Shown: piece after piece, positions 15,341 to 19,300 of the stretch
Numbering within the stretch: position 1 is the first letter of the stretch
How the letters are laid out: the number at the start of each line of letters is the position of its first letter
DNA from: Archangium sp.
GTDB lineage: Bacteria > Myxococcota > Myxococcia > Myxococcales > Myxococcaceae
NCBI GenBank assembly: GCA_030695565.1
Contig: JAUYRZ010000067.1
Span: 1-64,000 of the forward strand
Direction: 5' to 3'
DNA length: 64,000 bases
The notes under the pieces: generated by a model
Told to the model about the DNA's origin: nothing
What the model saw: the letters and a program-made list of their open reading frames with translations, nothing else
Database searches by the model: none
Position numbers and translations under genes: made by a program

Positions 15341-18300
15341 TCATTGGCCGAGCAGCGCGGTGGCGTCGAGGCGGCCTTCTTCCCAGCCCAGCACCAGGGC
15401 CAGCTTGCGCGCTTCGAGCGCCACCGACTTCATCGCCGCCGAGTCGCCCTGCTGTTTGCGAATGGCCTTCGCCTGCTGCAACAACGCCCGGGCCTGGAAG
15501 CGCAAGTCACCGCACCGTGCACCCGCCAGGCTCGCCGCCTGATACGCGGCCGCCGCTTCGGGAAACCGCTGCTGATACGCGAGCACGGTCCCCATGGTGG
15601 CCATCACGCGCGCTTCCGCGAACGGCCAGCCCGCCGCGCGCCACTTCTGCAGCGACGACTCGAGCAGCGTCAACGCCTTGCCCACGTCACGACGCGCGAA
15701 GGTGATGGTGGCCAGCCGCGCTTCCAATCGCGCAGCGAGATCGACCTCTCCATGCCAACGCGCCAGCTCGGCCGCTTCAGGTGCGAGTCTGCGGGCGTGC
15801 TCCAGCGCCTGCGAGGCGCCGTCGAGATCACCTTCGACCTCGCGCCCTTCACCGCGTTCGGCGAGCACCAGCGCGAGCACGGCGCTTCCCGCTGCGGCCT
15901 GCTCCGCCGCGGCGAGCACTTCGACGGCCTTCACCCGCCGGCCCTCGAGCCGAAGCACCCGGGCCTCGAGCAGCAGGTATTCCGGCGAAGGTGTGGCGAG
16001 GCTGGCGGCCTGGGCACTCACCGCGTTGAGCAACGCCCGCGCCCGCGCGACGTCTTCCACCACGAGCGACTGCGCGGCCGAACGAGCCAGCGCGTCGACC
16101 TGCGTCCGTTTCTGGGCCTCGGACACGGGCAACAAGCTGACCGCCGCCGAGAGGCCCGCCCACGCGCGGCTGGCCGTGCGGGGATCTCTGCGCGCGAGCG
16201 CTTGATCGAGCCCGTGTTTCCACAACGGCGCGGCCCGCGCCGCGTCACCCGCCGCCGTCAGATGGCTGGCCAGTTGAAGCGCATCGACCGAAGCCGCATC
16301 GGCCTGGCCCTGAGCGATCAACGCCGAAGCAGCCGCCAGATGAACGGCGCCCGCCTCGTGCGGTGAGAGCGTTGGCACGGCACTGAACGACGAGCGGTTG
16401 GTGAAGCGGCCCCGGCGAGGACCTTCGCTCGTGAGCCAACCTGCGTTCTGCAGAGCCGTGAGCAGGGGCGGCGTGGCAGCAGGCACCACCTCGCGCAACA
16501 CCGATTGATCGAAGCGCGCGCCGAGCAACGCGGCCGCCTGCAGCACCCGGCGTTGATCGAGCGGCATCGCCTGCAGCGCCGCGACCGTCGCGCCTTCGGG
16601 CGGTGCTGCCAGCGCAGGCTCGCACAGCTCGACCATGCCGCCTTCGGCGTCCACCAGCAGGCCACCCTCATCGAGCCACGACGCCAACTGCAAGGCGGTG
16701 CGCGGCAGCCCTTGCGACTGCGCGTGTACGAACCGGGCGAGCGCGGGGCCGGCGACCGCGCCGAGTGAAAGGCTGATCAACCGCGCAGACTCGGCAGGCT
16801 CCAGGGGAGGAATGGGCGTGCTCTGCTGATCTGCGAGCTTCGCGTCGAACGCGGAAGGCGCAGCGAAGCCGACGATCAACTCGCGCGACACCGGGCGCGA
16901 GGCCATCGACACGAACGCATCGATGCTCCCTTCATCCATCGCGTGGAGGCCGTCGAACGACAGCACCAGCGGCTTGTCCACCGCGGCCGCGCGCAGCACA
17001 CCTCGCAGCGCATGCACCGCCTGGCCCGGCGTCAGCGGCACCGGCAAAGGCCGCACGCCGGCGAGGCCCAACGCCGATTGTCTGGCCGAGTCGATGATCG
17101 GCAACGGCTCGAGCACCGCCGGCAACCGGGAGAACCGTTCTGAAGGGTGCACCCCCACCGCGACGCAGAGCAGCTCGATCAACGCACCGAACGGCTCGGG
17201 CAACCCGGTGGTGCTCAAGGCGAGCGCGCCGCGTTTGCGCGCGACGGTCAGCAGCGTGTTCGACAACGCGCTGAGCCCGCATCCCGAAGGGCCGGTGAGC
17301 ACCAGCGGCGCGACCACGCCCTGTTGCAGACTGGTGAGGCGGCGCTCCAGCGTCTCCACCAACGGCTTGCGGCCCACCAGCTCAGGCACGGCCCGCGCCC
17401 GGCGACGAGGCGTACCGCAGGCCACCAGCCCGGCGGTCTGGGTGGCGGTGATTTCACACAAACGCGCGGCGGGGCCTGCCAGGCGTTGCTCGAGCCACAA
17501 GGTGTTGGCGCGGCCCAGGGCCAGCTGCCTTCGAATCTTGTCCACCACGGGTTCACCGAGCGGGAACGCCGAGGGGCCCGCCAGCCCTCGCACGGTGGCC
17601 GAGACCCGCAGGCGAGCGCTCTCGAGCGTCACCGACTCGCGCGCGAGCAGCATCGCCCGCGTCGCGCGCCCCGACGGCGGCCCACCCTGGCCGATGAAAC
17701 CGAAGGTGACGCCTTCTTCATCCTGGCGCGCGACGAAACCACCCGTGCGCGTCACCGCTTCCTGCACACGCGCCAGGCAGGCCTGGGCAGGCGCACTGGC
17801 GGGGGGGGGCCCGAGCACCTCCAGGCGAACGAAGACGCCTTCGCCTTGAGGCTGCGGGCTCGTCGCGGGCCGGGCCGTCTCCGTGGGTCGTGAGCGCCCT
17901 GGGCCGACCGAGCCGAAGAAGTCATTCGCTTCGTTCGAGGGCGCAGCCGTGGGCAGCGGCGTGGGCGCTTCGGCGGGCGCAGGCGCGGGTTGCCACTCCG
18001 CAGCCGGTGGCCAGGGTGCAGACGCCGCTGGCACCAGCTGCGCCAGAGACACTTCCCCCTGCGGTTGAAGCGACTGGCGCAGCGCCTCGCGGAACTCGAG
18101 CACGTTCTGGAAACGGTGCTCACGCTCCTTGGCCAGGGCCTTGAGCACCGCCGCGCTCAGCGCAGGCAGCGCCGACAGCTCGGGCCGCAGCTGCGCGGGG
18201 TCGAGGGGAGCTGCGGTGAGGTGCTGGCTGATCACCTTGCGCAGCTCCGCGCCGATGAACGGCGGCCGGCCGGTGAGCAGCTCGTAGGCCACGCAGCCCA

Positions 18301-19300
18301 TCGCGTAGATGTCGGTGCGGTGATCGAGCTCGTCGGCCAGCGCCTGCTCCGGAGCGAGATAGGCGGGGGTGCCCATCACCATGCCGATCTGCGTGAGCTT
18401 GCTCGAGTCGACCTCGGCCAGCGCGTCACTCAAACGCGCGATGCCGAAGTCGAGAATCTTCGCCCGCACGCCGCCGTCGCGCCGCTGGCCCAGCATGATG
18501 TTGGGCGGCTTGAGATCGCGGTGCACCACGCCCAGGCCGTGCGCTTCGTTGAGGCCGTCGAGCACCTGCGCGAGGATCTCCACCGCCTCGGCCGGCGAGA
18601 GCAGGCCGCGTTTGATGCGCGCCTCCAGCGTCTCGCCTTCCACGAACTCCATGGCGAGGAAGAGCTGGCCGTCGGCGGTGCGGCCGAAGTCGAAGACGCG
18701 CACGATGTGAGCGTTCTCCAGCCGCGAGACGAGCTGCGCCTCACGTTCGAAGCGGCCCCACATCTCGACGTCGCCCGACAAGGAGCGCCGCAACAACTTG
18801 AGCGCGATGGGCCGCTTCAGGTGCACGTGTTCGGCGCGGTACACCTCTCCCATGCCGCCGGTGGCCAGGTGCGACTCGATGCGGAACCTTCCGTCGACCA
18901 GCTGGCCCGCCGCCAGCCGTTCGGCTCGCTCCTCCTCTCCGGGCGTGGGAGGGGGCGGTGGGGCCGGCATGGGCGACATCTGAATGCGGCTGGTCTCGAA
19001 GATGCCCGCCGTCTGCTGCCCATCGCTGAACTCGAGCACGAACTTGCTGACGGCCTTCCACGACGGGTCGTCGAGCTTCACCTGCAGGCCCACGTTGCCC
19101 GACTCGTCGAAGTCGGCGCCCACCACCAGGCCGCGCAGCTCGAGCCGGGCCTCGACCACGGTGACGTCGACCTCGAGCACCTCGCCGGGGGCGACCTCGT
19201 CGGGGTAGGGCACGAAACACGCGGGCCCGTTCGCGACGAAGCCGGCGCGAAACTCCTCGATGGAGTGAAAGGTGACGCCGCACCGAATCGACCCGGCCAA
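15341..19300 (-). CDS. PilZ-Ser/Thr kinase-ATPase-TPR giant signalling protein
   Basis: 1319 residues. Residues 1-100 look like a PilZ domain (FHSIEEFRAGF, then DFDESGNVGLQVKL). A Hanks kinase follows (about 135-410): LATGGMGEVYRAEH, ALKLL, VVHRDLKPPNIML, ILDFGIARL. After a Pro/Ala linker and a small domain comes an AAA_16-like ATPase (from about 650), with GPSGCGLSALS where Walker A should be (Leu in place of the Lys) and LVLSFDGLHAMDEGS as the Walker B region. The last 300 residues are helical TPR-type repeats. The plan resembles myxobacterial 'kinase-ATPase-TPR' regulators such as PknB/MalT-like hybrids. The start is a TTG at 19300; no ATG or GTG lies before the PilZ core. Cytoplasmic; partners unknown. 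Confidence 0.9.
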   Translation of the reverse strand: MAGSIRCGVTFHSIEEFRAGFVANGPACFVPYPDEVAPGEVLEVDVTVVEARLELRGLVVGADFDESGNVGLQVKLDDPSWKAVSKFVLEFSDGQQTAGIFETSRIQMSPMPAPPPPPTPGEEERAERLAAGQLVDGRFRIESHLATGGMGEVYRAEHVHLKRPIALKLLRRSLSGDVEMWGRFEREAQLVSRLENAHIVRVFDFGRTADGQLFLAMEFVEGETLEARIKRGLLSPAEAVEILAQVLDGLNEAHGLGVVHRDLKPPNIMLGQRRDGGVRAKILDFGIARLSDALAEVDSSKLTQIGMVMGTPAYLAPEQALADELDHRTDIYAMGCVAYELLTGRPPFIGAELRKVISQHLTAAPLDPAQLRPELSALPALSAAVLKALAKEREHRFQNVLEFREALRQSLQPQGEVSLAQLVPAASAPWPPAAEWQPAPAPAEAPTPLPTAAPSNEANDFFGSVGPGRSRPTETARPATSPQPQGEGVFVRLEVLGPPPASAPAQACLARVQEAVTRTGGFVARQDEEGVTFGFIGQGGPPSGRATRAMLLARESVTLESARLRVSATVRGLAGPSAFPLGEPVVDKIRRQLALGRANTLWLEQRLAGPAARLCEITATQTAGLVACGTPRRRARAVPELVGRKPLVETLERRLTSLQQGVVAPLVLTGPSGCGLSALSNTLLTVARKRGALALSTTGLPEPFGALIELLCVAVGVHPSERFSRLPAVLEPLPIIDSARQSALGLAGVRPLPVPLTPGQAVHALRGVLRAAAVDKPLVLSFDGLHAMDEGSIDAFVSMASRPVSRELIVGFAAPSAFDAKLADQQSTPIPPLEPAESARLISLSLGAVAGPALARFVHAQSQGLPRTALQLASWLDEGGLLVDAEGGMVELCEPALAAPPEGATVAALQAMPLDQRRVLQAAALLGARFDQSVLREVVPAATPPLLTALQNAGWLTSEGPRRGRFTNRSSFSAVPTLSPHEAGAVHLAAASALIAQGQADAASVDALQLASHLTAAGDAARAAPLWKHGLDQALARRDPRTASRAWAGLSAAVSLLPVSEAQKRTQVDALARSAAQSLVVEDVARARALLNAVSAQAASLATPSPEYLLLEARVLRLEGRRVKAVEVLAAAEQAAAGSAVLALVLAERGEGREVEGDLDGASQALEHARRLAPEAAELARWHGEVDLAARLEARLATITFARRDVGKALTLLESSLQKWRAAGWPFAEARVMATMGTVLAYQQRFPEAAAAYQAASLAGARCGDLRFQARALLQQAKAIRKQQGDSAAMKSVALEARKLALVLGWEEGRLDATALLGQ

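Follow-up and report, generated by a model that had tools for sequence, protein, structure and literature searches.

A predicted Ser/Thr kinase of Archangium sp. that joins PilZ, cyclase and STAND folds lacking the motifs for ligand binding or catalysis

Does a bacterial Ser/Thr kinase that carries a PilZ-like domain in front and an ATPase-like module behind still respond to cyclic di-GMP (c-di-GMP) or to ATP? The question is raised by a gene on the reverse strand, at positions 15341-19300, of the first 64,000 nucleotides of contig JAUYRZ010000067.1 of Archangium sp. (assembly GCA_030695565.1), a stretch of DNA that we call the window. A preliminary description of this gene had proposed that its product links c-di-GMP to protein phosphorylation in one chain. 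We consider it probable (about 0.6) that the product is instead a Ser/Thr kinase of the cytoplasm under the control of protein contacts, whose flanking nucleotide-related folds serve as nucleotide-independent docking or relay modules, and that its signals probably come from partner proteins and not from c-di-GMP. This reading builds on the domain folds, the intact kinase motifs, the missing binding and catalytic motifs and the shared loss of the P-loop Lys, as seen in alignments and structure models.

The gene is a single unbroken open reading frame (ORF) of 1319 codons with a TTG start, in a genome of 8.5 Mb in 134 contigs. From the N-terminus its product consists of a PilZ-fold head, a Ser/Thr kinase, a Pro/Ala-rich linker, a cyclase-homology domain, a STAND/AAA_16 module and a TPR-like tail (Table 1); the cyclase-homology domain is a fourth domain that had been overlooked between the kinase and the ATPase. 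The head is translated: when two congeners are compared with the window over 95 codons of the head region, third codon positions hold most of the differences (10/10/27 and 20/15/33 by codon position), and the TTG start is common to both congeners. Relatives L061 and L065 have an ATG at the position of this TTG. The earliest in-frame ATG of the window ORF lies at residue 108, with the result that gene callers favouring ATG could lose the head.

For comparison, the C-terminal part was searched in 147 genomes of the class, of which 56 matched at E <=1e-3 and 20 at E <=1e-20; 17 of these 20, the window's own genome counted, belong to the window's family, which, as counted among the relatives, is taken to be Myxococcaceae. 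Fifteen named relatives are metagenome bins labelled Archangium sp., Myxococcaceae, Archangiaceae, Myxococcales or Myxococcus sp. Thirty-six stretches were fetched, and 30 of them entered the family alignment, which has 31 rows with the window; the six not included were three kinase proteins without the head (L078, L083, L084), a cyclase (L087) and two stretches that gave no match (L090, L091). The head was analysed on 24 rows, the cyclase region on 26 and the P-loop and tree on 29, and profile A1 was built from 10. BLAST gave one segment only for some full relatives, such as L070 and L071, where it reported no kinase segment although Pfam sees the kinase, and the absence of a domain was judged by Pfam. 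Of 187 candidate places in the window genome itself, 150 were scored; at least 127 match the protein, nearly always along its kinase domain.

That the head has a PilZ fold is supported by three comparisons. A profile of the 24 heads found four distinct sequences in the PDB, all named Type IV fimbriae assembly protein, at E 8.7e-6 to 7.6e-5. With an AlphaFold2 (AF2) model of the head (predicted local distance difference test, pLDDT, 74.8), ranks 1-9 in Foldseek were all Xanthomonas PilZ chains, with template modelling (TM) scores of 0.56-0.69, and VIA placed Xanthomonas PilZ chains at Z 8.8-10.6 (4FOU at Z 10.6, with a root-mean-square deviation (rmsd) of 3.0 over 90 residues). The next family member in the VIA list is the c-di-GMP complex of VCA0042, at Z 5.8, and no other family exceeds that score there, a result that excludes none of them. 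By its modelled fold the head belongs to the PilZ superfamily. The PilZ-like head ahead of the kinase in a single chain therefore stands as far as the fold goes; a family match for the window head alone does not, since neither Pfam nor NCBIfam reports PilZ in it, and Pfam recognises PilZ in only two of the 24 heads (best E 5e-12).

PilZ domains that bind c-di-GMP carry RxxxR and then [DN]xSxxG at the binding site, and the window head lacks this pair. [DN]xSxxG is absent from it, its sole RxxxR lies at residue 52, in a later strand, and the stretch DFDESGNVG (residues 63-71), which resembles DxSxxG, is one residue off and falls in a late loop. None of the 22 heads of the window's family (window included) has [DN]xSxxG. 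RxxxR is found anywhere in 10 of these 22, scattered, and near the expected place only in L064 (residue 2). The ordered pair occurs in no family head and in one of all 24, that of L085, through a match in a later strand. As a control, PilZ domains that Pfam recognises in the window genome were read (45 matches, of which 30 were fetched and 1 of these skipped); 26 of the 29 have the ordered pair, in a sample that selection by Pfam biases to canonical domains. The proposed link to c-di-GMP is not supported: the motif pair is wanting in the window, the second motif is absent from every family head read, and the closest matches of known structure come from type IV pilus (T4P) PilZ proteins of Xanthomonas, non-binders.

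The doubt that had been raised about nucleotide use by the ATPase module is, in contrast, supported. Pfam reports AAA_16 at E 4.1e-11, above the cut-off, and Pkinase at E 6.2e-41, so that kinase and AAA_16 do share one chain as described. The P-loop reads GPSGCGLSALS, with Leu676 (codon CTC) at the place of the Lys, exactly as had been noticed. The Walker B-like strand VLSFDGLHAMD is also there, but its second acidic residue is Gly, and Walker B is not intact. Where an active STAND NTPase would have GxxxxGK[ST] and hhhhD[DE], the window has GPSGCGLS and SFDG, a combination that argues against an active NTPase. Among 29 sequences with the window, the Lys column holds Arg in 22, His in 4 (all of the same genus), Leu in the window alone and Lys in 2, L077 and L085, both from other families of the order. 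Leu itself is therefore not conserved, and, taken literally, both conditions that the preliminary description had set for its rejection came true, since the PilZ motifs are absent from the window and Leu is confined to its copy. The loss of Lys, however, is common to all 27 rows of the window's family, which makes it a shared trait and no fluke of the window copy. L085 alone retains the second acid of Walker B, which is absent from the other 28 of the 29 rows, L077 included; all 29 have the last Gly of the loop, the Ser/Thr and the first of the two acids. In a maximum-likelihood tree of residues 488-1319 (29 rows, midpoint-rooted, L085 on a long branch, P-loop column included in the tree data), the P-loop residue changes 3 times, the minimum possible, against a shuffled mean of 6.8, which fits a series K>R>H>L provided that the tree is rooted on its K side.

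In a control, the P-loop Lys was found in 25 of 28 AAA_16 stretches read from the window genome (75 matches, many below the curated cut-off; 30 fetched). The three others are the window's own Leu and two AAA_16-TPR proteins of the same genome, L116 (G000:C123:110171-110674; GMGRS), with Arg, and L128 (G000:C30:22867-23349; GSGIS), with Ile.

The domain between linker and STAND module has a predicted class III nucleotide cyclase fold without most of the catalytic residues. Pfam sees nothing in residues 488-634 of the window, and across the 26 rows Guanylate_cyc turns up once, at E 0.068. The profile of the cyclase region found Ma1120 in the PDB (best E 0.0013), and with an AF2 model of residues 488-960 (pLDDT 88.9) VIA returned class III cyclases at Z about 14-16, Ma1120 at Z 15.9 (rmsd 2.2 over 134 residues). 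An active cyclase of this class has two metal Asp residues, a base-specifying Lys and a transition-state Asn and Arg; mapped by alignment to the intact cyclase encoded at window positions 931-2424, the window domain has V (or a neighbouring E), E, R, D and R at these places, and so keeps only the transition-state Arg, which suggests that it is not an active cyclase. The metal-1 Asp is found in 0/26 rows, also under a one-residue slip that would turn the window's Val into Glu, the Lys and the Asn in 1/26 each, the metal-2 Asp in 10/26 and the Arg in 3/26, window included. Because both outgroup rows also lack most catalytic residues, the decay of the cyclase is older than the P-loop change. The 26-row cyclase-region profile gave nothing useful against one cyclase-ATPase protein, L087.

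The kinase, on the other hand, looks active to judge from its residues. The Gly loop, catalytic Lys, HRD, DFG and APE of a Hanks-type Ser/Thr kinase can all be read in it, and Lys, HRD, DFG and [AS]PE are kept in 23 of 23 kinase-bearing rows. Relatives L076, L079, L080 and L082 have the head and the cyclase-like and STAND parts with no kinase by Pfam, and since such relatives exist the kinase is a separable module; L081, whose contig stops short of the head, has no Pfam kinase either. The linkers of L076, L079, L080 and L082 are long and Pro-rich, and by eye L080 and L081 contain repeated units. In the outgroup relatives L085 and L077, which have kept the P-loop Lys, zinc ribbons stand between the kinase and the cyclase-like domain. 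The PHROGs matches and the 25 PADLOC matches listed of 33 fall on the kinase domain, and they were not taken as evidence of a role in defence.

Table 1. Features of the kinase gene, in window coordinates
Feature	Residues	Position	Strand	Basis
Whole coding sequence, 1319 aa + stop, TTG start		15341..19300	-	ORF reading, comparison with congeners
PilZ-fold head without c-di-GMP motif pair (predicted)	1-94	19019..19300	-	Profile against PDB, AF2 model, Foldseek, VIA, motif count
Ser/Thr kinase, catalytic motifs intact (Lys168, HRD 260-262, DFG 284-286)	132-415	18056..18907	-	Pfam, NCBIfam, alignment
Pro/Ala-rich linker	416-487	17840..18055	-	Translation
Class III nucleotide cyclase-homology domain without full catalytic set (predicted)	488-634	17399..17839	-	Profile against PDB, AF2 model, VIA, residue check
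STAND/AAA_16 NTPase-like module	640-960	16421..17383	-	Pfam AAA_16 at 640-804; Cdc6/Orc and NB-ARC folds
P-loop, Lys replaced by Leu676 (CTC at 17273-17275)	670-678	17267..17293	-	Alignment, codon reading
Walker B strand VLSFDGLHAMD, second acid Gly	779-789	16934..16966	-	Alignment
TPR-like C-terminal region	961-1319	15344..16420	-	Pfam TPR_12, conservation in relatives

A probable mechanism for such a protein is that the head no longer reads c-di-GMP and offers a docking surface for a partner, while the cyclase-like and ATPase-like domains, without chemistry of their own, would serve as scaffold or relay. When a partner docks on the TPR-like tail, they would pass the signal to the kinase, which would then phosphorylate its targets as well as itself. 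Nucleotide was probably used at the ancestral P-loop, and the Lys would have given way to Arg in the family, to His in the genus and to Leu in the window. When six neighbouring genes were compared by tblastn with the 15 named loci, only L093 matched (4/6), and this comparison suggested no partner gene, several loci being too short to tell.

A different view of the head would make it a divergent c-di-GMP receptor that binds through unconventional residues and switches the kinase, which we regard as very unlikely. The fold is a true PilZ fold in Foldseek and VIA, but its closest structures are the Xanthomonas T4P proteins, and the available part of PMC8389850 reports no c-di-GMP binding for Pseudomonas and Xanthomonas PilZ; the PDB title of 3DSG speaks of trivial c-di-GMP binding. 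The outgroup head of L085, from another family of the order, is recognised as PilZ and partly as TIGR02266, a paralogous PilZ-like domain of M. xanthus, with 56.5 bits (E 2.3e-15, under the curated cut-off of 68.7 bits); L077 reaches 29.3 bits and the window head does not match. With the window set aside, the head profile matches 16 places of the window genome at E <=0.1, and 6 of the 9 best overlap PilZ domains with both motifs, which makes descent from a c-di-GMP-binding PilZ likely; the head is probably a descendant of a motif-bearing PilZ that has become like the T4P type in motif loss. The missing [DN]xSxxG in all family heads and the misplaced RxxxR of the window argue against binding, as does the kinase-PilZ protein Pkn1 of M. 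xanthus, whose PilZ is predicted, in the part of PMC8316039 available, not to bind c-di-GMP. The motifs are an imperfect predictor, however, for the same part of that source has PixB of M. xanthus binding c-di-GMP without the Ser of the second motif, and PlpA reported as a non-binder with the motif residues present.

A STAND module that still handles nucleotide, by binding it or by switching on it, is rather doubtful too; in this view Arg, or other contacts of the P-loop, would stand in for Lys in the relatives, and the Leu form would be a weakened one. All 22 family rows from other genera, divergent paralogs and near copies among them, have Arg, which could mean a working variant, and the invariant loop Gly, Ser/Thr and first Walker B acid are in line with one; the appearance of His and then Leu within the window's genus, and the nearly general loss of the second Walker B acid, are not. 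Quite improbable is an assembly or sequencing error that turned His into Leu676: CTC is one base away from a His codon and Leu occurs in 1 of 29 copies, but the gene frame is undamaged, and the conclusion would hardly be affected, as the His congeners are already without Lys. Weighing against a kinase regulated by protein contacts are, besides this Arg, the PixB and PlpA cases and the head-profile matches to motif-bearing domains, the failure of Pfam and NCBIfam to see PilZ in the window head, the only moderate confidence of the head model and of its Foldseek scores, and the weak recognition of the TPR tail (TPR_12 at 1190-1256, E 3.4e-4, under the curated cut-off, in a region conserved in relatives). 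To these are added the metal-2 Asp of 10 rows with the window's Glu there, the kept transition-state Arg and a nearly invariant Glu beside the metal-1 place. Nucleotide may still be bound when the P-loop Lys is gone, and as L077 has this Lys with the second Walker B acid already gone, Lys alone is no marker of an active form.

Kinase-PilZ chains such as Pkn1 and kinase/cyclase fusions (TIGR03903) are already known. The likeness to Pkn1, deletion of which reduced sporulation (PMC8316039, available part), lies in having kinase and PilZ in a single chain, and on domain content the window protein would be of the Pkn1 type. In the kinase-PilZ fusions L003 and L165 of the window genome the PilZ domain lies behind the kinase, whereas in the window protein it lies in front and three further modules follow. 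The kinase part of the window matches the TOMM system kinase/cyclase fusion (TIGR03903) in 2 stretches with 197.5 bits, far under the curated cut-off of 705.75, and the window protein has a PilZ head in addition. The head agrees in fold and profile with Xanthomonas T4P PilZ (3CNR, 3DSG, 7LKM); that protein is small and separate, whereas the C-terminus of the window head is fused to a linker and not free. According to the available part of PMC8389850, T4P PilZ proteins (XAC1133/PA2960 orthologues) contact PilB through Trp69 and a C-terminal motif V, and FimX through F49 and L51. By hand count on the HMMER alignment, the window head has Gly61 for Trp69, Glu43 for F49 and Asp45 for L51, which speaks against it being such an orthologue, and since these contacts are not kept its partner is probably a different one.

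Residues 488-634 are alike in fold to CyaC-type and soluble adenylyl cyclases (CyaC Z 15.8, human soluble adenylyl cyclase 4CLT Z 14.8 in VIA). Soluble adenylyl cyclase also couples cyclase folds with an AAA-like and a repeat region; in the window protein, in contrast to these enzymes, the catalytic set is incomplete and kinase and PilZ precede the cyclase fold. The next module shares its fold with STAND/AAA_16 NTPases of the MalT and NB-ARC class (NB-ARC of NRC1 Z 13.7 in VIA) and differs from them in the P-loop and Walker B losses described above. We found no description of the PilZ-kinase-cyclase-STAND combination in the literature searched, which was covered by the beginnings of abstracts at most.

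Two other proteins of the window deserve mention. The gene at 931-2424, on the reverse strand, encodes a protein whose N-terminal part resembles, by eye, MshEN/GspE_N repeats; it also has a receiver-like stretch and a class III cyclase domain that retains the catalytic residues (FADLRNF, LGDG, VNVASR), and is possibly a response-regulator cyclase with c-di-GMP-type input. The gene at 7103-8800, also on the reverse strand, encodes another Ser/Thr kinase, in which a tract of many VADKLP(V) repeats precedes the C-terminal part.

These findings suggest that multi-domain bacterial kinases can lose the residues for reading c-di-GMP or ATP and still retain the folds that formerly did so, and the labels 'PilZ' or 'ATPase' in such chains should not be taken as ligand use. 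We tentatively put forward, as possible, that these STAND-type kinases form a lineage whose P-loop Lys was exchanged for a retained Arg and then lost, so that the switch would work without nucleotide hydrolysis or with an Arg P-loop, and in which a docking PilZ head, a pseudo-cyclase and the STAND module, three nucleotide-related folds, would form a protein-only sensor for one kinase. The K, R, H and L series in close relatives is a natural set for asking whether a STAND module can signal without nucleotide.

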